From assembly GCA_026461395.1 (NCBI GenBank), contig JAPJNA010000005.1, positions 1 through 49,141 of the forward strand: DNA of 49,141 nt, written 5' to 3'. The notes under the pieces were generated by a model. The model did no database searches, was not told the origin of the DNA, and saw nothing but the letters and a program-made list of their open reading frames with translations. Shown piece by piece: positions 7,897 to 38,689 of this stretch. Both the position numbers and the translations under genes were made by a program. The DNA comes from Chthoniobacterales bacterium. Its GTDB lineage: Bacteria; Verrucomicrobiota; Verrucomicrobiia; Chthoniobacterales; UBA6821. The stretch's first letter is position 1; every line of letters begins with the position of its first letter.

Positions 7897-9000
7897 ATGA
7901 ACACCCTTGAACCGTCTGAAGAATCCAGTGATGAGTTGAGAACGGATGGAACACATGGTGAAGAAATCACTTCGGAGTTATCCCAAGTGGATCTTAAGCC
8001 TAGTCGCCGACGACGCTCAAATAGCAATTCCCGAAAAGGTCGCTCTGTGAAGACAGCTCCCCGTGACAGGGGTCGGTCTAGGGGTAAGGGAAGATCTTCG
8101 AAGCGATTTGATGCCGAGCGCTTCATGGTGATTAGCTGCTTTATCCTAATTATCGGATTAGCTTCTTTCGTCGGTTATTGGTTCGGCAAGAAATCATCAA
8201 CTTCGGCCAAGACCGATGTGTCGGCCACGAAATACGAAGAGGTTCTCCCTTCTGCAGAATCAGATGCCTTGGTGGATTCCGGTTTTGCTGAACTGAGTGG
8301 CGGAGATTCCCATAAAGCTTTCCTGCATTTTCAAAAAGTTCAGGAGGCCCAGGGTACGCTCCCGGGTATCGATTTTCTGGTAGGTAATTCCGCGCTACAA
8401 GCCGGAGAGGTGATTCTCGCCAAGGAATCCTTGGGGCATGCTATATCTAAGAATGAAATGGATGATGAGGCTCGAGTCTTGATGGCTCTCATCACTCTCG
8501 AAGAATCGGATAAAAATAAGGATCAGAGGGGAATTATGGCGGATCCTCTCGTGACGGCCGAATCTGAGCTGCGTCGGTATGCATCGACTCATCCGATGAA
8601 TTCTTCCATCTACCGCAAGTGGGCTGAGATTCATCGACAGAGGGGAAGTTATCGGACCGCCTCTGACCTCCTGCACAAGGCGGTGATCCGTGCAGATCTT
8701 GACAGCAATATCTCTCTTCTTTCCGCGAAGGAGATTCTGACGAAACTCCAGGATCAACCAGCAAAAGAGGTTCCTTCGCTTGCGATTATCACCTCGATGT
8801 CCGGAGAGCAGGCGATGGGGGCCGCCCTCAGTTCCCTGCAAAACAAATCGGGATCGGATGCCGTTTTTTTCCTCGAACGCGCAAGGGAGTATTATCCCCC
8901 GCGCGTTTTCAATGAGCTTATGAAGGATGCCGCTTTTGACGAGTACAGGGCGGATCCGAAATTGGAAAAGTTTCTGAAATCCGGATCGCCTCACTCCTAG
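7897..9000 (+). CDS. Membrane-anchored TPR-like protein of unknown function
   Basis: A 367-residue protein I do not recognise as a named family. The N-terminus is acidic (1-32), then very rich in Arg/Ser/Lys (36-70, SRRRRSNSNSRKGR). One membrane helix spans about 76-96 (FMVISCFILIIGLASFVGYW). The rest is helical with TPR-like spacing (AELSGGDSHKAFLHFQKV, LVGNSALQAGEVILAKESL). The positive-inside rule puts the basic tail in the cytoplasm and the helical part in the periplasm. It ends 112 bases before atpB, across a palindrome and a candidate promoter, so it is probably not part of the atp transcript. It may be a scaffold; the function is unknown. Confidence 0.7.
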   Translation: MNTLEPSEESSDELRTDGTHGEEITSELSQVDLKPSRRRRSNSNSRKGRSVKTAPRDRGRSRGKGRSSKRFDAERFMVISCFILIIGLASFVGYWFGKKSSTSAKTDVSATKYEEVLPSAESDALVDSGFAELSGGDSHKAFLHFQKVQEAQGTLPGIDFLVGNSALQAGEVILAKESLGHAISKNEMDDEARVLMALITLEESDKNKDQRGIMADPLVTAESELRRYASTHPMNSSIYRKWAEIHRQRGSYRTASDLLHKAVIRADLDSNISLLSAKEILTKLQDQPAKEVPSLAIITSMSGEQAMGAALSSLQNKSGSDAVFFLERAREYYPPRVFNELMKDAAFDEYRADPKLEKFLKSGSPHS

Positions 9001-15809: not shown

Positions 15810-16448
15810 ATGCCAGTGGCCCCCTCAACCTGTCGTGAGTTGCTGGTTCAGTGTCTGGAATCGAACCGCTTCCTGATCGGCCAGATTCTTCTGAGCTCCG
15901 ACTACACGTTGCGTCACGTCGAGGATGCTAATCGTGACGACCTTGATTTATTTAACTCTGCCACAGATGCCAGGCTTATTGCGCGGTATGATGCCCAAGA
16001 AGAGTTCCGTCCCCTGAAGACCGCACCGAATTTGAGGCGTGGCTGGCTACTCAAGCTTGGCTCACTCGAGGAGATGGAACGTGCGATCGAATATTTTTAT
16101 CCTGCAGCCCTTGGACTCTGGCTTTCTTATCTTAATGGGTCCCTTAAGCCTACGAGCCTTCGTCAGACCTTGGACCGTCAGACGGGAATGTACCGGATCA
16201 CGCAATTATTGAAGCCCGATCAAGCTCAGGAGCTTGTTGCGAAGAGCTGCACCTCCGACGGAGGATGCCTCCGAACCATTCTCTGGGATCTGACGCCCGG
16301 TGAACCCCTCTCAGGGCTTCCTGCCGAGAAGCTCTCTCTGGACACGCTTCCCACTGGCAGAATTCCGCTGATCTGCCGCGAACTCTGTAATCTGGTGATC
16401 GCGGCGGCACGTCCGATTGCCAAGGGAAACCTTCCTAAGAAGGACTGA
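15810..16448 (+). CDS. Unknown protein with four spaced cysteines, possible Fe-S protein
   Basis: A 212-residue soluble protein 41 bases after atpC. I cannot name it with confidence. Residues 65-115 are helical (LKTAPNLRRGWLLKLGSLEE). The C-terminal half holds four cysteines in two pairs: C147-x5-C153 (KSCTSDGGCLRTILWD) and C189-x3-C193 (ICRELCNLV). This is a plausible [4Fe-4S] ligand set. It recalls the C-terminal iron-sulfur region of DR2241-type CbiX-like proteins, from memory and unverified. No chelatase domain is attached. The start ATG follows AAGGGC closely. It may be carried on the atp transcript by read-through. Confidence 0.6.
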   Translation: MPVAPSTCRELLVQCLESNRFLIGQILLSSDYTLRHVEDANRDDLDLFNSATDARLIARYDAQEEFRPLKTAPNLRRGWLLKLGSLEEMERAIEYFYPAALGLWLSYLNGSLKPTSLRQTLDRQTGMYRITQLLKPDQAQELVAKSCTSDGGCLRTILWDLTPGEPLSGLPAEKLSLDTLPTGRIPLICRELCNLVIAAARPIAKGNLPKKD

Positions 16449-16506: not shown

Positions 16507-17748
16507 ATGCCAGCCTCCGAAGCAATAAGGCTCTACAGAGGAACAAGCGTGCTTCCGATGAGTTCGCCTGACATCTCGGATGGAGGGCTTGCCGTGAGGC
16601 GAGGGGAGATCCTTGCCGTGGGAACATGGAAGGAGCTGGTTCGGGAGTATCCTAGCGCCTCGAGGGAAGATCTCGGTGAGGTGATCTTAATGCCCGGGCT
16701 GATTAATGCGCATTGCCATTTAGACTACACGATGATGAGGGGCGCTCTCTTTGGAGGCGGCTCGTTTGCCGAGTGGATCCAGCGCCTCAATGCCATGCGT
16801 CGTTCCCTGGATCAGAGGGATTACGTCGATGCAATAGCAGTTGGATTGAAGGAGCTTCATCATTGGGGCTGTACTACGGTCCTGAATATCGAGTCCTTTC
16901 CAGAGTTACTGCCCTTTCTTCTGGAATCCCCGATCAGGGTTTGGTGGTTCCTCGAAGTCATGGATGTGAGGAGTCGCCTCCAATCAGCAGAGGCCTAGGC
17001 GGGGGCAATCTATTTTCTCGAGAAAGCTTCCGAGGGGTTAGGAGGGTTCGGAATCTCACCACACGCCCCCTATACCGTCTCCCGCAACCTCTACGAACTT
17101 TCCTCGACCTATGCTCTTAAATATCAGCTTCCTCTCTGCACACACCTGGCCGAGTCCGAGGAAGAAATGAGCATGTTTGCCAAGGGTGAGGGGCTTCTCT
17201 ACGAATTTTTACGCTCCATTGGGCGTCCGATGGAGGATTGTAAGGGGGTGACTCCGATTCAGGCTGTACTAGGGAGAGAACTTGTTCCCGAGGGATCGAT
17301 CCTTGTTCACATGAATCAACTCGATAGTAACGACCGAGAGTTGCTGAAACGCACTGCAGGACGCTATCCCGTGGTCCATTGTCCCAGGACTCATGCATTT
17401 TTCGAACGAACTCCCTTTGATCTGAATTTCTTCCGCGATAGCGGGATTCCTCTTCTCTTGGGAACTGACAGTCTGGCAAGTAATCAGGATCTCAATATGT
17501 TTGCTGAGATGAGGGCGTTAGCAGAGGCCTTCCCTTTTCTGGATCCCTACGAAATTCTCCGTATGGTTACGACAGCGCCGGCTGCCGCGATCGGTCGTGC
17601 CGGAAGACTGGGGCAGTTTTCACCGGGAGCTCTTGCGGATTTCATTGCCATTCCCGATCTAGCACCGAATGGAGGGTTAAAAGGAGTTGCGGAACGGGTG
17701 CTCGCCAACCGGATTCCTCCGGCTGTATGCATCTCTGCTCAATCATGA
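16507..17748 (+). pseudogene. Amidohydrolase-superfamily deaminase interrupted by one in-frame TAG
   Basis: Reading from the ATG at 16507, the frame stops at TAG 16996-16998 and then continues in the same frame with good family sequence (AGAIYFLEKASEGLGGFG, then SPHAPYTVS and CTHLAESEEE) to a stop at 17746-17748. The whole would be 413 codons. All metal-site motifs are intact on both sides of the stop: HCHLD (N-terminal HxH), CTHLAE, HMNQLD, HCPRTHAFF and LGTDSLASN (metal Asp). The family is the chlorohydrolase/MtaD/aminodeoxyfutalosine-deaminase group; the GTDSLASN motif is typical of the last, but no other futalosine-pathway gene is nearby. A single base change from a sense codon such as CAG, GAG, AAG or TGG would explain the stop. 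The end overlaps the next gene by ATGA. Confidence 0.8.
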
Positions 17749-19703
17749 GTGGACTGCGATCATTTCTTATTTGGATCTCTTCCAGGCCTTGGTTTTCAAG
17801 TCTTCTCCTTGGGCTTGTGCTCCTCACGGTGGCTTCCACCTACGCTCAAGTCCTGAGCTTCCATTTTCTGCCGTTCTGGGATGACGACACCAACATCCAT
17901 CGGAATCACCTCTATGCGCCGCTTTCGTGGGGAAGCGTGACCACTTTTTGGAAGGCTCCCTTCCAGCAGCTCTACATTCCCGTCACCTATTCCGTTTGGG
18001 CGGGACTTGTCGCCCTCTCACGTATCGTAGCCGGGACAAGTATCAGTTTCGGACCGATCAATGCCGCGCTTTTCCACGGCATGAATCTTAGTATCCACCT
18101 CCTCTCCACAGGTATGGTTTTTATCATTATTCGTAGAATGCTGGGGGCGCGGCTTTCTACTTTTTCTACGGATTCGATCACTTCACCACGCGTTCTGCTT
18201 GCATCCGCGGCTGGAGCTCTTGCTTTCGGTCTTCATCCGATCCAGGTCGAGGCGGTCGCCTGGGTCTCGGGATTGCGAGATCTTCTGGGCGGTGCGCTCT
18301 CTCTTGCCGCCCTGGCTCTATTCCTTTCATGGCTTGATAACTCCGGAAGAAATACCCGGCAGGCCTTCCGATACATTACTGCCACCCTTCTCCTGCTCTT
18401 GGCCTTCGGTTCCAAGCCGGGGAGCGTCGTTACCCCAGCACTGGCACTCCTTTGCGGCTTCTGGCTTTTATGGGTCAGGGGACGTTCGCCTAAGCCCCTT
18501 CTCTGGCTGATTCCATGGTTCATGATAGCTGTTCTGGAGGTGATGATGACGTCCAAGGCACAGCCGGCTGCGGAACTTGCACGTTCTTTGGTGCCATTGT
18601 GGGCGAGGCCTCTGGTGGCTTGTGACGCGATCGCTTTTTACCTCTGGAAGCTTCTCTGGCCTGCGGATCCCTGGGGGCTCTGTGCTGATTATGGGCGTTC
18701 CCCTAACTCCCTGATGCAGGCCGGCATTCTCTACTGGAGTTGGCTGATTCCAATGCTCCTCGCGGTCCTGCTGGCATTCTTCAAAAAACTCCGCCCGTAC
18801 ATGCTTCCGGCCACTCTGATGGTCATCGGAGTTCTTCCGACGCTGGGTCTTATCCCTTTCAACTTCCAGGTAGTATCAACGGTTAGCGACCGATATCTCT
18901 ATCTCGCCATGCTGGGCCCGGCACTGGCCTTTGCCATGCTGATCAGCGATGCACGTCCCCGGATTGCCATCATTCTGGCAGCTCTTTTTCTACCCTTCTG
19001 GACTGTCTTGACGCTACTTCAGATCCCGCAATGGGAGGCTGGAGAGTTTTTCTTTCCAGCGACGTTGGCCCGCAATCCCACTAGCTGGAAGTCGCGCCAT
19101 AATTATGCATGCACACTGGATGCCCAAGGAAAACTTCCCGAGGCTCTCAAGGAGTTTGTGGAGGCGATTCATCTGCGTCCCTCGAATGCCGAGGCTTACA
19201 ATGACATGGCCCTCACTCTCTTAAAGATGGGACGCCGTCAGGAGGCGATCCAGGAGTTCCAACAGTCCCTCCAGGTGAGGGCAACAACTGGGGCAGCACG
19301 CAACCTAGCAGCGGCGTTGCTGATGAATGGCGAACCTGCAAAGGCAGCTCAAGTTTTCCGACTTGCGATGCAGATTGACCCGGGTGACTTGCAGGACCAG
19401 CGCTCGTTGGCCTGGTTACTTGCAACACACCCCGATGGCACGGTTCGTAACGGCCAGGAAGCCGTTTCCCTTTCCAAACAGATCGTAGAAGCAACGAACG
19501 CGCAGGTTCCACTCTTTCTTCTCACGTATTCCGCAGCCTTAGCCGAATGTGGCATTTTTGATGAAGCATCTCGGGTGGCCACAATGGCGGCATCCGCCTA
19601 TGACCATTCCGGGGATCCCGCGATGGCACAGATGATTCAGACAAGGGTGCTTCCTGCACTTGGAGCACATCAACCGATCAGGGATAATCCTCTTCTGAAG
19701 TGA
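17745..19703 (+). CDS. TMTC-like polytopic membrane protein with C-terminal TPRs (putative GT-C glycosyltransferase)
   Basis: About 652 residues from the ATG that overlaps the previous stop (ATGA); an alternative ATG is at 17727. The N-terminal two thirds contain about ten membrane helices. The first large loop has an acidic motif WDDDTN (45-50), as in GT-C transferases. It is followed by the stretch GLHPIQVEAVAWVSGLRDLL, characteristic of eukaryotic TMTC proteins and their bacterial homologues. From about residue 440, TPR units follow (RHNYACTLDAQGKLPEALKEF, then AEAYNDMALTLLKMGRRQEA). Known TMTCs are protein O-mannosyltransferases using lipid-linked mannose. Whether this one is active is not known. 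Confidence 0.75.
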   Translation: MSGLRSFLIWISSRPWFSSLLLGLVLLTVASTYAQVLSFHFLPFWDDDTNIHRNHLYAPLSWGSVTTFWKAPFQQLYIPVTYSVWAGLVALSRIVAGTSISFGPINAALFHGMNLSIHLLSTGMVFIIIRRMLGARLSTFSTDSITSPRVLLASAAGALAFGLHPIQVEAVAWVSGLRDLLGGALSLAALALFLSWLDNSGRNTRQAFRYITATLLLLLAFGSKPGSVVTPALALLCGFWLLWVRGRSPKPLLWLIPWFMIAVLEVMMTSKAQPAAELARSLVPLWARPLVACDAIAFYLWKLLWPADPWGLCADYGRSPNSLMQAGILYWSWLIPMLLAVLLAFFKKLRPYMLPATLMVIGVLPTLGLIPFNFQVVSTVSDRYLYLAMLGPALAFAMLISDARPRIAIILAALFLPFWTVLTLLQIPQWEAGEFFFPATLARNPTSWKSRHNYACTLDAQGKLPEALKEFVEAIHLRPSNAEAYNDMALTLLKMGRRQEAIQEFQQSLQVRATTGAARNLAAALLMNGEPAKAAQVFRLAMQIDPGDLQDQRSLAWLLATHPDGTVRNGQEAVSLSKQIVEATNAQVPLFLLTYSAALAECGIFDEASRVATMAASAYDHSGDPAMAQMIQTRVLPALGAHQPIRDNPLLK

Positions 19704-21214: not shown

Positions 21215-22078
21215 ATGAGTATAGATAGCAATTACGCGCACCCCGATGCACTCGTCACAACGTCATGGATGGCCGATCATCTGAAGGACCCCGGTATCCG
21301 GATTATTGAGAGCAACGAGGATATCCTGCTTTATGATATGGGGCATGTTCCGGGAGCTGTTCATATCGATTGGCAACGCGATCTGCAGGATCATACGATT
21401 CGTGATTACATCCAGCCCGAAGCCTTTGCGGCTCTCTGCTCGAAGAATGGGATTACCCCTGAAACAACCTGCATATTCTACGGAGATAAATCCAACTGGT
21501 GGTCCTGCTACGCGCTCTGGGTTTTTCGCCTTTTCGGTCATGAGAAGGTCAAGATCATGGACGGAGGACGCGACAAGTGGATTGAAGAGGGCAGACCTCT
21601 GACCCGTGAAGTTCCCCACTATGAGAAGACCGCCTATCCAGTTCCCTCAAAGCGACGTGATGCCGAAATTCGTGCCTTCTATGACGACGCCCTTGCCCAG
21701 AGCCGTGGCAAACTTCCTCTGATCGATGTCCGCTCCCCGGGCGAGTTTAAGGGACTGGTGACCCACATGCCAGAATACCCTCAGGAGGGGGTGCTGCGAG
21801 GAGGTCATATTCCTGGAGCGCATGGCATTCCCTGGAAGCAAGCCGTGAATAACGATGCGACTTTCAAGACTGCCGAGGAGCTTCGCAAGATTTACCAGAC
21901 CGATCTTGGTCTCAAGCCCGATGACCAGATTATCGCGTATTGCAGGATTGGAGAGAGATCCAGTCACACGTGGTTCGTACTGAACTATCTCTTGGGTTTT
22001 GATAAAGTGCGAAACTATGACGGCTCCTGGACGGAGTGGGGAAACCGTGTCGGCGCGCCAATCGAAAAGTCTCTCTAG
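21215..22078 (+). CDS. Thiosulfate/3-mercaptopyruvate sulfurtransferase (tandem rhodanese)
   Basis: A 287-residue protein with two rhodanese domains: an inactive N-terminal one (about 10-130) and a catalytic C-terminal one (about 150-285). The active Cys243 lies in the loop CRIGERS, the pattern of thiosulfate-type rhodaneses (CRxGxR). It moves sulfane sulfur from thiosulfate or mercaptopyruvate to an acceptor. The next gene, 11 bases later, is SufE-like, so the acceptor may be SufE. The start is the first ATG, after a GATAAG leader. Confidence 0.93.
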
Positions 22079-22089
22079 GGATCCTTGCG

Positions 22090-22557
22090 ATGTCTTATCC
22101 CGCGAAGCTGTCCGCGATCATTGAGCTTTTCTCGGGTCTTCCCGACGCGGAGAAACGCGAGACCTTGATAGCCTATGCCGATCAGGCAAAGTCCCAGGAA
22201 CCGAGGGAGGGTGAGTCGTTTGATCTTGAGGATGTGCGCAAGGACGAGGAGTGCACCGACACCGTGGCGATCTATCTCCGGCTCGACGAGCAGGGAGGTG
22301 CCCACTTCAGGATATCTCTTGGTCCCCAAGTCCAGACGCTGACGCGGGCCATGAGTTCGATCCTCTGCAAGGGGCTTGAGGGAATATCCCCGGCGGACAT
22401 CCTGGAAATTCCTGCGGATTTTGTTCCAAAGATCGTCGGCGCTGAGCTTGTCCGCCTGAGAAGTCAGACCGTTTATTATCTGCTCACGCGCATTAAAAGC
22501 GTCTCCAAGGTCTGGTTGCAGCGCCAACGCAACGAGACTCAAGACAACAACGGTTAA
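22090..22557 (+). CDS. SufE-family sulfur acceptor
   Basis: A 155-residue protein with the SufE fold signature. The sulfur-accepting Cys55 lies in DEECTDTVAIYL. Downstream come the conserved KGLEGISPADILEIPADF and VRLRSQTVYYLLTRIKS. The usual GCQS motif around the Cys is replaced by EECT, but the position fits. SufE passes persulfide sulfur from SufS to the Fe-S scaffold. No suf or isc genes are nearby; the partner here is the upstream rhodanese. The frame is open further upstream, but the ATG at 22090 gives the family start. Confidence 0.88.
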   Translation: MSYPAKLSAIIELFSGLPDAEKRETLIAYADQAKSQEPREGESFDLEDVRKDEECTDTVAIYLRLDEQGGAHFRISLGPQVQTLTRAMSSILCKGLEGISPADILEIPADFVPKIVGAELVRLRSQTVYYLLTRIKSVSKVWLQRQRNETQDNNG

Positions 22558-22573
22558 TCGCCTTTCGCTGAAG

Positions 22574-23656
22574 GTGCCTCGCTGTTTTATCTTCAAGCCT
22601 GACGGGATCGGAGACTTCTTTCTGGCCTCGGGAGTGGTGCGTCTCATGGCGCGGGAGTTTGGTGAGGAGAATCTGACCATAGCTGTCCTCCCGCTCCTGG
22701 AGTCGGTTGTGAGAGGTCAATTTCCCAAGGCAGAGATCGTCATTCTTCCCATCCGGAAGCAACGGGTCATTCTGAATGTTTTTGTTGCCAACTGCCTTCG
22801 CTGTTTCCCCTCGTGGCTTCAGCTCCTTCGGACACGAGTAGATACAGCGATTTCCCTGCGTCATATGCGTGACTATCTGCAGAGCTTTCTCTTCTACAGC
22901 GTGTGGGCTGGAAGGAGGCTCATGGCCTCGAATTTGCTTTTAGGTAATGGACGCAGGGTCCGGCGCTGGACGGAGCAATCCATGAATGCCATTTTTTCCA
23001 CGGAGATCGCATATTATCCCGAGGCAAGACTCGGGATTCCGAGTGAGTTAGAAGCACATCGTCTGCTTGTTTCGGCGGTTCTTGGCCGAAACGTTGATCC
23101 CAGTGAGATCTGGCCTGAACTGAAAGCGGTGAATCCTTCCCCGATCGACTCTCTTTACTCCCCCTACTTTGTCTGTGCTCCGTACTCCAGTGACATCTGG
23201 AAAAACTTTCCAGAGCATCGCTGGATCGAGCTCTTTGTACTGCTCAATACTCAAGAAAGGGGCTCCAGACTTAGGAATCTCGTGCTGACAGGCTCGTCGG
23301 ATCAGCGGCAATCCTTGGAAGCCTTTGGGGCCATGATCCGAAAGGCCCTTCCTGAGACGAGGATCAAGACCACTGTTCTGATTCCCGAGGATCTGCAGGG
23401 ATTCATCGATCTCTTGGCCGGAGCTGATTGTGTATTCACCGTCGATACTGCTGCAGCCCATGGTGCGACAGCGCTTGATTGCCGAACCTTGATTCTGTTT
23501 TCAGGCCTCCATCAGGGGATGTTCGCTCCATGGACCAAGAGCAATCGTCAGCACTGGATCCTTCCCAAGGAATCATCAAGCGATATGCAATGGCATGAGG
23601 CCCATGCGACATCCGAAATCATGGAATGTCTTGAGAACATACTGTCAGCTCCCTGA
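22574..23656 (+). CDS. Family 9 glycosyltransferase (heptosyltransferase-like)
   Basis: A 360-residue GT-B enzyme. The N-terminal FKPDGIGDFFLASGVVRLM is the GT9 donor-side motif (IGDxxL). The C-terminal DLLAGADCVFTVDTAAAHGA with the following LILFSG holds the nucleotide-sugar site of this family. It probably adds heptose or a similar sugar to the LPS core at the inner face of the membrane. The start is GTG, 16 bases after sufE and in the same direction. The exact sugar cannot be read from sequence. Confidence 0.88.
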   Translation: MPRCFIFKPDGIGDFFLASGVVRLMAREFGEENLTIAVLPLLESVVRGQFPKAEIVILPIRKQRVILNVFVANCLRCFPSWLQLLRTRVDTAISLRHMRDYLQSFLFYSVWAGRRLMASNLLLGNGRRVRRWTEQSMNAIFSTEIAYYPEARLGIPSELEAHRLLVSAVLGRNVDPSEIWPELKAVNPSPIDSLYSPYFVCAPYSSDIWKNFPEHRWIELFVLLNTQERGSRLRNLVLTGSSDQRQSLEAFGAMIRKALPETRIKTTVLIPEDLQGFIDLLAGADCVFTVDTAAAHGATALDCRTLILFSGLHQGMFAPWTKSNRQHWILPKESSSDMQWHEAHATSEIMECLENILSAP

Positions 23657-29479: not shown

Positions 29480-30844
29480 ATGCGCCACGGTCGTTTCGAA
29501 GAATCCATGTCCAACCTCCTCAGGGATTACGGTGAATCTGTCTCTTTTGACTGGAGGCTTTATGCCCACGATATTTTGGGAAGCATTGCCCATGCGCGGG
29601 CCCTGGTGAAGGCGGGATATCTTACTGAAGATGAGTTTAAATCTATTGAGAAGGGATTGAAAACAATCGGGGAGGAGATCTCGGCGGGCAAGTTCGCCTT
29701 TTCCGTTGATCTCGAGGATATTCATATGAATATCGAGAAGGAGTTGACGAACCGCATCGGGGATGCTGGCGCTAAGCTCCACACGGCCCGCAGCCGCAAT
29801 GACCAGGTCGCCACTGACATCCGTCTCTACCTCAAGGACGAGATTGCCGCTCTACGAAAAGGAGTCTGTGGTTTACAGAAAGCCCTGGTCGGCCTTGCCT
29901 CGGCGAATGAGTCGGTACTCATTCCTGGCTATACCCATCTCCAGCGCGCCCAGCCGATACCTCTGGCTCATCATCTTCTTGCCTATGTTGAGATGCTTGA
30001 CCGCGATCATGGCCGTCTCACGGATACGGCCGCTCGCATGGATGAACTACCGCTCGGTTCCGGGGCCCTTGCCGCCTCCACACTCCACCTTGACCGTGAA
30101 GCCATCGCGCAAGAGCTCGGTTTCTCGGGGGTTACTCAGAACAGCCTCGACGGCGTGAGCGATCGGGACTTCGCTCTCGAGTTGCTCTCGGCTCTCGCGA
30201 TTCTTGGTATGCATCTTTCGAGGCTTTCGGAAGATGTCGTCCTCTGGACCACGACGGAGTTTGGATTTGCCAAACTCAGCGATCGTCATTCCACAGGCTC
30301 GAGCCTGATGCCTCAAAAGAAGAATCCCGATATTGCCGAGTTGACCCGAGGCAAGACAGGTCGCCTGTACGGCAACCTTTTCACCCTTCTAACCGTTCTG
30401 AAAGGGCTTCCGATGGCCTACAATCGCGACCTCCAGGAGGACAAGGAAGCGATCTTTGATTCCGTGGACACAGCCAAGATGGCCCTGGCCGTCACAGCTG
30501 AGATGATGGGCGCTCTGATCATCAATAAGGAGACTGCGACTACTGCTGCCAGTGATCCGGCATTGCTTGCCACAGATCTGGCTGATGAGCTGGTGCGCAA
30601 GAACATGCCATTTCGCAAGGCTCACGATCTTGTTGGTCAACTTGCTGCTGAATCCGCCAAGACCGGTATTCCTCTCGATAGGCTTCCTAAGGAATTCATC
30701 AGGGAAATCTGTCCCGAGCTCATCGGTGAATGGGAGGGGTTATTTGACCCGATTAGGTCTTTGAAGGCTCGTTCTGCAACGGGTGGCCCCTCTCCGAATA
30801 ATGTTTCCATACGCCTTGCCTACTGGAAAAACATTCTCGTTTAG
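29480..30844 (+). CDS. argH: Argininosuccinate lyase
   Basis: A 454-residue enzyme that splits argininosuccinate into arginine and fumarate. The N-terminal HGRFEE corresponds to the family GGRF, so the start is right although GAGGAG touches the ATG. Fumarase-superfamily motifs follow: TARSRNDQVATDIRL, PGYTHLQRAQPI (His) and the signature GSSLMPQKKNPD with its mobile catalytic Ser. No other arg gene is in the window. Confidence 0.96.
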   Translation: MRHGRFEESMSNLLRDYGESVSFDWRLYAHDILGSIAHARALVKAGYLTEDEFKSIEKGLKTIGEEISAGKFAFSVDLEDIHMNIEKELTNRIGDAGAKLHTARSRNDQVATDIRLYLKDEIAALRKGVCGLQKALVGLASANESVLIPGYTHLQRAQPIPLAHHLLAYVEMLDRDHGRLTDTAARMDELPLGSGALAASTLHLDREAIAQELGFSGVTQNSLDGVSDRDFALELLSALAILGMHLSRLSEDVVLWTTTEFGFAKLSDRHSTGSSLMPQKKNPDIAELTRGKTGRLYGNLFTLLTVLKGLPMAYNRDLQEDKEAIFDSVDTAKMALAVTAEMMGALIINKETATTAASDPALLATDLADELVRKNMPFRKAHDLVGQLAAESAKTGIPLDRLPKEFIREICPELIGEWEGLFDPIRSLKARSATGGPSPNNVSIRLAYWKNILV

Positions 30845-31703: not shown

Positions 31704-32978
31704 CTATGTTACCAAACCGGAATTTCTTTTTCGGGGAAGTCCGGAAATTATAAGAAACAGTGTCGTGACGGCGGGAGTAAGCCAGGGAAAGAGGATTCCA
31801 TGACTCAGTGAGCTTGCAATGGCCGCAAGCGTTCCAAGCATCAGAAATAGGGCAATGATCAGTGAAGTAATCCCATTGCAATATTGTCCGGTGACAAGCA
31901 GACCGATACACGCCGTGCAGAGGAGGAGTTGAGTGGACCAAGGTAAGTGTTTCCAAGCGAGTTTTGATGCAAGTTTCTGAAGTATTGAGAGGAAAGGCTG
32001 ATCCGATTTCTTTCCGAGGATCACGAGTGCATCGTTCCACGCTGTATCATAGGAAGAAGTGGGCTCACCACGCTCCTTCTGCTCCGCGTGAAGGAGGAAG
32101 TCCTCTAACGAAGAGGAATTGATAGGACTCGAAGCCTTCGTTCTGAGAGACCCATCGGCGGTCAGAACAAGGGGGGAGCGATTTGGAATGAGCAGAAGCC
32201 TCCCGCCAAGCAGCCACAAGATCTCTTGTTTTTTCGTTGAGGGACTTTCAATCCCAACCCCAGTTTCTTTCCCCGCCACTTCCTCCTCGATGACATGCCA
32301 CCAGGTTGATCCCACTACCTCGCCTTGTGCTGTTTTAGCAAAGAGCTGCAGACTCTCTGGCGTGAACTGAGACGTTCCTGACGAATGAAGGTCGAAGGGT
32401 AGAAAGCATCCCTGCTCCTTATCTGAAATGCTGCCCGGCAAGGTCACCCAATGAGTGCCAAGATGAAAAAAGTTTGGGGGATCGTAACGGCAAAGCGGTA
32501 TACAATGATAACGTGCAGCCTCTGTGGGGGCCTGAGACTTAATGACGTTGATTCCTTCTGCCCTGAGGGTTGATAAGACTCCTAGGAGGAGTTGCTCCGA
32601 TTCCTTATCCGAGGTCACTTTCCCCGCGATCATAATCCGTGATGGGTGGAGCTTACCAAGACCACGCAGAGCCATGGCGACATCCATTGCGGGAAAGGCT
32701 TCCTCACCAGGCGACATCTCCAGAAGTGCAATCTTAGGTCCGAAATTCTCTACACCATGAACTTTCGTGATCCAGGTGGCTGGGAGGACTTTCAGGAGTC
32801 GCTCTTCCAGCGGCCACGTCAGCCCGAGTAGCTGAACGAAGGTGGCGAGCAGAATGATCGTGCCAAAGGCGATGCTCAGAATAGGGGAGCTGACGTTCTT
32901 GGGTTTGACTAATGCAGTGGGAGCCGCAGGCGTCCCTCCATCATCTGATTCCTTGAGATAATAAAGTGCCATGACCAA
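31704..32978 (-). CDS. Orphan membrane protein, possibly a degenerate CHASE2-like sensor
   Basis: A 424-residue protein not recognised. One membrane helix lies near 33-54 (SIAFGTIILLATFVQLLGL). A large loop follows (about 60-345), then three closely spaced helices near the C-terminus (about 347-418). Topology and the sequence KIALLEMSPGEEAFPAMDVA, then GLGKLHPSRIMIAG recall CHASE2 extracytoplasmic sensors, but no kinase, cyclase or GGDEF domain follows. Confidence in that link is low. It is convergent with tatC, and recN is upstream on the same strand with a gap of 33 bases. Confidence 0.65.
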   Translation of the reverse strand: MVMALYYLKESDDGGTPAAPTALVKPKNVSSPILSIAFGTIILLATFVQLLGLTWPLEERLLKVLPATWITKVHGVENFGPKIALLEMSPGEEAFPAMDVAMALRGLGKLHPSRIMIAGKVTSDKESEQLLLGVLSTLRAEGINVIKSQAPTEAARYHCIPLCRYDPPNFFHLGTHWVTLPGSISDKEQGCFLPFDLHSSGTSQFTPESLQLFAKTAQGEVVGSTWWHVIEEEVAGKETGVGIESPSTKKQEILWLLGGRLLLIPNRSPLVLTADGSLRTKASSPINSSSLEDFLLHAEQKERGEPTSSYDTAWNDALVILGKKSDQPFLSILQKLASKLAWKHLPWSTQLLLCTACIGLLVTGQYCNGITSLIIALFLMLGTLAAIASSLSHGILFPWLTPAVTTLFLIISGLPRKRNSGLVT

Positions 32979-33011: not shown

Positions 33012-34682
33012 TTAGCCACGGGATACTTTGATCAGAGCCTCCGCATGGGCCTTTGCGGATTCGCTTACCCCTCCCAGCATTCTGGCAATTTCAGAAATAC
33101 GTTCGGATCCATCGACTGAAGAAAGAGTTGTTTCTGTACGTCCTTCCTGAACGCTTTTCATTACCATGAACTGTGATGATGCGGCCGCCGCTACTTGAGG
33201 CAGGTGAGTGATACAGAGGACCTGGTGTCCGGAACCGAGCTCTCTCATCTTGGCCGCGACCTTTGTCGCGATCTCGCCTCCGACATTGGCATCGATCTCG
33301 TCAAAGACCAGAAGCGGAATCTTATCCTGTGCGGCAAGCGCCGACTTGAGCGCCAGCATCACACGGGAGATTTCTCCGCTGGAGGCGATGGATCGGAGGT
33401 TCTGTACGGGCTCACCCGGATTCGGAGCAAAAAGGAACTCAGCAACCTCACCTCCATCAAGGCCGTACTCTGCCTGCTTCTCAAGAGTGATTTCAAATCC
33501 AGCCTGCTTGAACCCTAGGTCGGCCAGTTCCCTAGCCACGAGCTTTGCAAGCTTGCCTGCTCCCTGTGCGCGTTTCGCTCCAAGCTTTTCGGCTGCTGAT
33601 TGGAGTTTGCTCAGCGCTTCGGAGAGATGCTGTTCGGCGGCGGATTTCAGTTCCGCGTACCCCGAGAGTTTATCGAGTAGAGCGGCTGAGGCCTCACCCC
33701 TGGCAATCACGTCGGAAAGCGCCGGGCCATACTTTCGGCGCAACGTAGAGATTAGGTTTAGACGCTCCTCGAGCTGATGGAGTTCACCGGCATCGACCTC
33801 GATGGTCTCCGCATAATCACGAAGATCCGAGATCAGGGAATCGAGATCGCTCGTGATCCTCTCCAGTGTCTCCAGATGCGGGGCGGAGCGCTCATCCAAT
33901 CGACCGAGTTCCCTGAGAAGTCGGGCTGACTCCGAGAGCGCCAGACTCGCTCCCCGTTCCTCGTCATCGAGACGCGCAATCGAGGAGGCTGAGAGTTCGA
34001 TCAGGCGGCGACTATTCGAGGCGGCTTTGTATCGGGCGTTCAGCGTCTCTTCTTCCTCTTCGACCAGATTGGCGGAGTTGATTTCCTCGATTTCGAGCCG
34101 CAGTTGTTCGATGCGATCCCCACTACCGGCCGAGGCCTCGAGTTCATCCAGATGACGTTTGGTTGAGGCCACATCAGCGCGCCGTTCGAGATAGACTTCT
34201 CTCAGCGGCAGTGCCTCGCAGTAACGGTCCAGTAGCAGGGTTTGCTCACGTCGTGAGAACAGGGATTGGTGATCATGGGGCCCGTGCAGATCGACGAGAC
34301 GAGTTCCGAGTTCCTTGAGGACTGAGAGATTGCAGGGACTGCCGTTGATGAACTGCCTACCCGTGGTGTTGCTCCCCTCAGCGGCGATGGTTCTTTTCAG
34401 AATCAGTTCTCCCTCCTGACAGGGATCGATGCCGGATTCTTCTAGTAGTGAATCGATCTCACGAGTCTCCTCCAGTGAGAAAAGCGCCTCGATCCCAGCA
34501 GACGATGCACCGGCTCTGACTACTCCTCGGTCCGCCCTCTCGCCTAGAAGGAATTTGAGTGCTCCAAGGATAATCGATTTTCCAGCGCCGGTCTCGCCGG
34601 TCACGGCTGTGAAACCTGCAGGAAGATCCCATTCCAGCTCCTCAACAAGGGCAAGATTACGGATTCGGAGAGATCGGAGCAT
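33012..34682 (-). CDS. recN: DNA repair protein RecN
   Basis: A 556-residue SMC-like ATPase acting in double-strand break repair. Walker A GETGAGKS is at 29-36, a central coiled coil spans about 150-370, and the C-terminal half has the Walker B region LLVFDEIDANVGGE. The frame is open upstream to 34817, but that part encodes SAPLRLCASLF, the translation of a dispersed repeat, so it is excluded. The start at 34682 gives the family beginning MLRSLRIRNLALVEELEW; 34691 is a possible alternative. The true length matches E. coli RecN (553). Confidence 0.95.
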   Translation of the reverse strand: MLRSLRIRNLALVEELEWDLPAGFTAVTGETGAGKSIILGALKFLLGERADRGVVRAGASSAGIEALFSLEETREIDSLLEESGIDPCQEGELILKRTIAAEGSNTTGRQFINGSPCNLSVLKELGTRLVDLHGPHDHQSLFSRREQTLLLDRYCEALPLREVYLERRADVASTKRHLDELEASAGSGDRIEQLRLEIEEINSANLVEEEEETLNARYKAASNSRRLIELSASSIARLDDEERGASLALSESARLLRELGRLDERSAPHLETLERITSDLDSLISDLRDYAETIEVDAGELHQLEERLNLISTLRRKYGPALSDVIARGEASAALLDKLSGYAELKSAAEQHLSEALSKLQSAAEKLGAKRAQGAGKLAKLVARELADLGFKQAGFEITLEKQAEYGLDGGEVAEFLFAPNPGEPVQNLRSIASSGEISRVMLALKSALAAQDKIPLLVFDEIDANVGGEIATKVAAKMRELGSGHQVLCITHLPQVAAAASSQFMVMKSVQEGRTETTLSSVDGSERISEIARMLGGVSESAKAHAEALIKVSRG

Positions 34683-34761
34683 GGCCGACATGGCGGATAC
34701 TATGCCACTGGGGGGAAGGAAGTTGAAGCGCTCATTTGGTGCCCCGAAAGAAAACAGACTC

Positions 34762-34936
34762 GCGCAGAGGCGCAGAGGCGCAGAGAATAAATAAATGAAA
34801 CGGAATGTGTTTCGCATTCAATTGTTTGAATCTGTCATCACTCAGTTCACGAAAACAGAGTGCGTCTCAAAAACCGAATTGCCGTCTGCATCCACGGAAT
34901 TGAAGGATTATACTCAGTGTCTCTGCGCCTCTGCGG
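34762..34936. repeat. Dispersed inverted-repeat element, copy 3
   Basis: The left arm is three exact tandem GCGCAGAG octamers (34762-34785). The right arm is CTCTGCGC plus CTCTGCGG (34921-34936). Arms enclose about 135 bases, the same size as in copy 2. After the left arm the sequence AGAATAAATAAATGAAAC resembles copy 2. It fills the gap between recN and the MBL-fold gene and must contain or displace both promoters. Confidence 0.72.
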
Positions 34937-37936: not shown

Positions 37937-38067
37937 GCTGCATTCATCCTGCCGGAGGCCAAATCCCAAAAAATGTCCCTTCTCTCTCGAGAGGGTGCAC
38001 GGGGGCTTTTTTTGAATATCTGAGCAGTATTTATTTTAATGCAGCAATATTTATATATATTTGAGGT

Positions 38068-38289
38068 ATGAAAACGACCATCGATCTTCCGGAGGAGATG
38101 CTGCACCGGGCAAAGGTGTTAGCGGCACGGCAGCATTCCACACTCAAGGAACTTGTGATTGCAGGGCTTGATCATGTTCTGGGAACGAGTGCAAGCACAT
38201 CACTCGACGCCCCTCTAGGCAGGTTGAGACAGGGACTTCACCTCGGTAACAAAGCGATGTCCCGCGACGAGATCCATGCACGCCGTTAG
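38068..38289 (+). CDS. VapB-type antitoxin (ribbon-helix-helix)
   Basis: A 73-residue protein starting MKTTIDLPEEMLHRAKVLAA, the ribbon-helix-helix DNA-binding pattern of type II antitoxins. The C-terminal part (about 45-73) should wrap the toxin. It overlaps the PIN-domain toxin gene by 14 bases. The upstream 90 bases are strikingly AT-rich (TATTTATATATATTTGAGG) and probably hold the self-regulated promoter. Confidence 0.88.
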   Translation: MKTTIDLPEEMLHRAKVLAARQHSTLKELVIAGLDHVLGTSASTSLDAPLGRLRQGLHLGNKAMSRDEIHARR

Positions 38290-38689
38290 ATTCCTCGACA
38301 CCAACATCCTGCTCTACGCCTACGATCTGGATGCCGTCGGCAAGAGGGATCGTGCACTAGAACTGGTGGAGGAGGGGTGGAACCGGCTCGGCGAGACCGC
38401 GATCAGCGTGCAGGTTCTTCAGGAACTTCATGTCAACTTGGAACGCCGGAGTGTCACTAGGGAGAAAATCCACCAGATCGTGCGCGACTATTCCAGTTGG
38501 CCGGTTGTGGAGAACACCCTCTCCCTGATGCAGGCGGGTCTTGCCGAGCAGGCCCGTTGGCAACTTTCGCTCTGGGATTCGATGATCCTGGCCGCCGCCC
38601 GCGTATCCGGAGCATCCGAGCTGATTACAGAGGATTTTAGCCACGGACAGGACTACGGGGGAATCAAGGTAATCAATCCCTTTGTGTGA
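38276..38689 (+). CDS. VapC-type PIN-domain toxin RNase
   Basis: A 137-residue PIN protein. All four acidic residues of the Mg2+ site are visible: D8 (FLDTNILLYA), E50 (VLQELHVNL), D101 (LSLWDSMILAAA) and D120 (ITEDFSHG). The toxin should cleave specific RNAs, often tRNA, when the antitoxin is lost. It appears intact. Confidence 0.9.
   Translation: MHAVRFLDTNILLYAYDLDAVGKRDRALELVEEGWNRLGETAISVQVLQELHVNLERRSVTREKIHQIVRDYSSWPVVENTLSLMQAGLAEQARWQLSLWDSMILAAARVSGASELITEDFSHGQDYGGIKVINPFV

Follow-up and report, generated by a model that had tools for sequence, protein, structure and literature searches.

The window, by which we mean the whole 49,141-nucleotide stretch of DNA that was analyzed, carries an amidohydrolase gene on the plus strand that is interrupted by a single in-frame TAG. 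This TAG probably arose recently as a nonsense mutation of one base; the gene is single-copy and otherwise under normal purifying selection. We infer that the base is real in living cells. The initial annotation had offered three options for the codon, namely a recent nonsense mutation, a sequencing or assembly error, and a recoded or suppressed stop. The first two survive our analysis, and the third is without support. The draft genome to which the window belongs, as contig C56, comprises 2.03 Mb in 80 contigs (95.16% complete, 0.06% contamination).

An in-frame TAG in a single-copy amidohydrolase gene

Translation of positions 16507–17748 (plus strand) gave one 413-codon amidohydrolase frame followed by a terminal TGA, and its sole interior stop is the TAG at codon 164 (16996–16998). 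The 5′ part of this aminofutalosine-deaminase-like gene (16507–16995) comprises 163 codons and holds H69 and H71. The 3′ part (16999–17748) comprises 249 codons plus the TGA and holds H186, H213, and D321. We take these five residues to be metal ligands by reference to the amidohydrolase superfamily. The Pfam Amidohydro_1 match covers residues 60–382 of the read-through frame (1.1e-35) and spans the TAG. When the gene is split at the TAG, the two halves match profile positions 1–58 and 113–318 of 345, which are complementary parts. Both the amidohydrolase domain and the His and Asp residues conserved in the superfamily are therefore present in the read-through frame.

The gene is single-copy, as no second copy was found in the 80 contigs of the window genome. 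The changed base of the TAG does not lie inside a homopolymer, and a run of five G starts at 17001. The TAG creates one CTAG, a motif that is under-represented in a 449 kb sample of the genome (607 seen vs 1710 expected from base composition); no inference is drawn from this count. The 58-base stretch before the deaminase start was considered as a genome repeat and rejected, the 449 kb sample holding no other full copy and one chance-like 17-base match.

The TAG site is a leucine codon in the family

The deaminase was found in 33 of the 38 genomes searched, the window genome included; in the family search, it was found in 20 of 22 genomes, that is, in 19 of 21 relatives. Among named genome contigs, 13 loci match it (nine Spartobacteria, one Verrucomicrobia, one Verrucomicrobiales, one Proteobacteria, and one Chloroflexi, the last at 29% identity), and all of them are MAGs. 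Four near relatives with 81–89% identity carry the same frame of 412–413 codons uninterrupted, and therefore the frame spanning the TAG is not a product of chance. The sole length difference among these four genes and the window gene is one codon at the 3′ end.

Of the 32 relatives in which the gene was matched, 29 were aligned, consisting of 19 family members and ten order-level sequences. Comparison of the codon in relatives, which the initial annotation had proposed, gave leucine in all 19 family orthologs (TTG in seven, CTT in six, CTG and CTA in two each, CTC and TTA in one each), with no stop at the site in any of the 19 and no TAG among the 29 aligned relatives. The order-level sequences have valine in six cases, isoleucine, methionine, and alanine in one case each, and a gap in one. 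As leucine occurs in all 19 family members, it is the ancestral residue, and one substitution gives TAG. The four closest relatives all have TTG at the site, one substitution from TAG, and there is no further damage in the window gene. It keeps all 49 columns that are invariant in the 29 aligned relatives, and of the 90 columns invariant in the 19 family orthologs it differs at residue 164 only; the conserved columns that are kept include H69, H71, H186, H213, and D321. The earlier claim that the frame, the family sequence, and the ligand residues run on past the TAG is thus borne out by the single frame, the Amidohydro_1 match, and the 49 columns, and so is the claim that the TAG is the only damage over 413 codons.

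Some relatives gave no match. The contig of G006 stops two bases beyond a partial match to the neighboring gene, and since it ends there, the deaminase of this genome may simply be unassembled. G017, a sister-genus genome that is 96% complete, has no match to the deaminase or to the neighboring gene; the latter is also missing from G016, though G016 has the deaminase. A TAA counted in G019 was rejected, as it came from an alignment running 15 bases past one that ends at 8163, and there is no stop inside the latter.

Selection before and after the TAG

We calculated dN/dS by the Nei–Gojobori method with the gene split at the TAG, comparing the window gene with G002, G004, G010, and the more distant G001. 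Against G002, G004, and G010, the window gene gave 0.126, 0.159, and 0.155 before the TAG and 0.128, 0.123, and 0.139 after it. Comparisons among these three relatives gave 0.149, 0.155, and 0.173 before the site and 0.126, 0.156, and 0.129 after it. Against G001, the values for the window gene were 0.082 before and 0.144 after the TAG, and those for the other three were 0.077–0.100 and 0.125–0.154. The 3′ part is thus constrained as it is between intact relatives. Non-synonymous private changes after the TAG are somewhat commoner in the window gene than in the three relatives pooled (8 non-synonymous to 20 synonymous vs 10 to 44), and this difference is not significant (Fisher p = 0.40). A rough Poisson bound, which assumes a neutral ratio of 3.5 and two constrained ratios that are likewise assumed, puts the unconstrained share of the window's own branch after the TAG at about 9–15% at most.

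Apart from the TAG, the gene is under normal purifying selection. As dN/dS on either side of the TAG is like that between intact relatives, the stop is young, unreal, or read through. Unchanged constraint would be equally expected from a consensus error or from full read-through, which counts against a nonsense mutation.

Probable function and neighboring genes

Judged by its sequence matches, the enzyme most resembles the aminofutalosine (aminodeoxyfutalosine) deaminases of the futalosine route to menaquinone, a substrate assignment that is plausible though unproven. The best PDB match is 2imr, DR_0824 (5.6e-30), and 3v7p, 4m51, and 7lkj (aminofutalosine deaminase) are among the 19 matches. 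We take 2imr, 3v7p, and 4m51 to be enzymes that deaminate aminodeoxyfutalosine. Besides this likeness to 2imr, 3v7p/4m51, and 7lkj, the window genome contains both MqnE (465.5 bits, cut-off 434.55) and MqnC (487.3 bits, cut-off 428.1). The window gene differs from the aminofutalosine deaminases in its score against its best NCBIfam match, the aminofutalosine deaminase model PRK08418, which is 140 bits and below the cut-off of 320 (the intact G002 ortholog scores 132), and other deaminases of the superfamily are also found among the 19 PDB matches.

The pathway context is uneven in the sister genus, where G017 has MqnE over the cut-off and no deaminase match, and G016 has the deaminase and no MqnE over the cut-off. 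The futalosine hydrolase model scored 66.8 of the required 124.7 bits in the window genome and was over its cut-off in none of the eight genomes searched. A review covering Helicobacter names mqnF as the aminodeoxyfutalosine deaminase, together with mqnE and mtnN, a nucleosidase (PMC13280913). The deaminase step might be bypassed by way of a nucleosidase. Our literature search for work joining aminofutalosine deaminase with amidohydrolase found none.

The next gene encodes a TPR-repeat protein (17745–19703, plus strand), and its start overlaps the deaminase stop as ATGA (17745–17748). The same overlap is present in the four closest relatives, so the coupling to the next gene is indeed intact, as first noted. 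Upstream, a gene with DR2241 and Fer4_23 domains (15810–16448, plus strand) lies outside the interruption; it matches only positions 308–471 of 486 of the NCBIfam model PRK02395.

Several other genes of the window were observed in passing. An SMC/AAA-type ATPase ORF lies at 33012–34817 on the minus strand, its best match in the defense library being mad3 (4.7e-27). It adjoins an ORF of 424 codons (31704–32978) with no Pfam or PADLOC match. A PIN-domain protein, possibly the toxin of a toxin–antitoxin pair, is encoded at 38276–38689, and most of this gene is covered by a stretch (37949–38679) with no DNA match to the G002 region compared.

Nonsense mutation or consensus error

If the nonsense mutation is real, RF1 would terminate translation at codon 164 in the sampled strain. 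The resulting product of 163 residues would keep the N-terminal HxH pair but not the conserved metal-site residues that follow, and the enzyme would thus presumably be inactive. Translation of the downstream coupled gene may also be lowered by a polar effect.

There is a lesser, though still considerable, chance that the population carries an intact gene and that the TAG arose as an error of consensus or assembly, or reflects a minority strain variant in the draft consensus. Both the draft state of the genome, with its 80 contigs, and the fact that the named relatives are MAGs fit this reading. Such an error would also fit the constraint, which shows no clear relaxation, and the orthologs found in relatives, none of which has a stop at the site. 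The run of five G lies just 3′ of the TAG. The pathway context speaks against loss as well: with MqnE and MqnC present, loss could be harmful if the gene serves menaquinone synthesis, which favors an error or a bypass. Against an error, the changed base is outside any homopolymer, and a search for other interrupted genes gave no second case.

For this search, the 49 kb window was compared with the predicted genes of four relatives, and the deaminase was the only conserved gene with a stop well inside. By our reading of the flagged rows, the other stops (1336, 22457, 24101, 24556, and 24580) are TAA or TGA upstream of a start that the window has in common with the relatives, and these were rejected; the remaining rows either fall right at the edge of a match or belong to frames lying antisense to a larger gene. 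Over 400 kb beyond the window, same-frame tandem ORFs with downstream pieces of at least 40 codons were ranked by codon usage, and the best 25, including the deaminase, were retained. Ten of the 24 other candidates were scanned, among them all four TAG candidates outside the window. Eight of the ten have different families on either side of the stop and are therefore two neighboring genes each; the other two were uninformative. No second interrupted gene was thus found in the window or among the ten scanned candidates, and nothing in the genes examined points to amber-specific interruption beyond the deaminase. Since other interior stops are lacking within these limits, the consensus is not generally poor.

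Recoding, read-through, and decay

TAG is an ordinary terminator in the window genome. It ends 107 of the 410 mechanical ORF calls in 449 kb and 17 of the 50 such calls in the window, the deaminase included. For each of the other 16 window ORFs, the matching frame of at least one relative ends at the same position or no more than about ten codons away, and in seven cases TAA or TGA takes the place of TAG in a relative. One of the 16 (22075–22680, minus strand) overlaps a gene on the plus strand and is possibly an antisense ORF.

The window genome also encodes RF1 (463 bits, cut-off 423.25). Its two matches to pyrrolysyl-tRNA synthetase (PylS, TIGR02367), at 40.1 and 18.9 bits, are far below the cut-off of 178.15; with the same model, 13 of 14 control genomes gave a match, one of them above the cut-off. 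Searching for tRNAs gave 42 distinct genes (42 matches in the tRNA family search and 46 rows in ARAGORN, of which four are repeats from overlapping loci). No CUA anticodon was found among these 42 tRNAs of a genome about 95% complete. Ala(TGC) and Ile(GAT) tRNAs are not among them either, and therefore the tRNA set is incomplete. Neither pyl genes nor an amber suppressor tRNA, both of which the initial annotation had suggested as checks, thus came to light. The absence of TAG at the site in the 29 aligned relatives indicates that there is no conserved recoding, and the fold after the TAG is unremarkable (z −1.32, 24 of 200 shuffles as good), on which ground we rejected a structured read-through signal. 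The likeness to pyrrolysine systems lies in an in-frame TAG within a conserved enzyme. The window genome differs from them in its sub-cut-off PylS, the lack of a CUA tRNA among those found, the common use of TAG as a terminator, and the leucine at this site in the family. All the above leave the recoding of amber, whether by pyrrolysine or through a suppressor tRNA, without support, and we rejected it, a judgment that is not absolute as the tRNA set is incomplete.

A 73-base tRNA of this genome with the anticodon UAA (G000:C20:16153-16225, L079:101-173) was called as tRNA-Leu and does not have the long variable arm that is usual in leucine tRNAs. No other tRNA among the 42 has a UAA anticodon, and 11 of 15 relatives in the same genus have this tRNA at 99–100% identity along its entire length. 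In G004, the first 38 bases of this tRNA recur in the same direction (G004:C19:23169-23206), some 7.6 kb upstream of the complete gene (30744–30816), and similar half copies are present in G001 and G013 on other contigs. The half copy in G004 could mark the attachment site of an integrated element.

We consider it improbable that the TAG is read through by a near-cognate tRNA or an unseen suppressor, with the enzyme kept working, perhaps at a reduced dose. In favor of this idea, the part beyond the TAG is constrained much as it is in intact relatives, and a survey proposes read-through for many in-frame bacterial stops with dN/dS below 1 (PMC7918605). The same survey describes the vast majority of such stops as short-lived (PMC7918605), and RF1, the lack of a CUA anticodon among the 42 tRNAs of an incomplete set, the relatives' codons, and the unremarkable fold all argue against it. 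More doubtful still is a real amber fixed in the species and partly read through, which would reduce the dose of a menaquinone step while TAG otherwise serves as a normal stop.

An older pseudogene undergoing ordinary decay is a very unlikely reading: the lack of a match in the sister-genus G017 (96% complete) suggests that the gene may be dispensable, but the frame has neither a further interior stop nor a frameshift, the 90 family-invariant positions are unchanged apart from residue 164, and constraint shows no clear relaxation (unconstrained share at most about 9–15%), so the several further disabling changes by which the initial annotation would have recognized plain decay are not there.

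Implications for the Spartobacteria

In-frame nonsense codons are widespread in bacterial protein-coding genes and mostly short-lived, according to the survey of Belinky et al. (2021, PMC7918605). The stops it covers resemble the window TAG in being single in-frame stops in genes kept under purifying selection. The survey centers on stops common to two or more species, whereas the window TAG occurs in one genome only; it calls the dN/dS of its cases fairly high, whereas the window gene has 0.12–0.16 against its three nearest relatives. A literature search on stop codons in Spartobacteria returned nothing relevant. Given how widespread single nonsense codons appear to be in bacterial genes (PMC7918605), the TAG matters little in itself. 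If the base is real, the preferred nonsense mutation would mean that a possible menaquinone gene was lost very recently, and it would test whether this step can be bypassed in these Spartobacteria.
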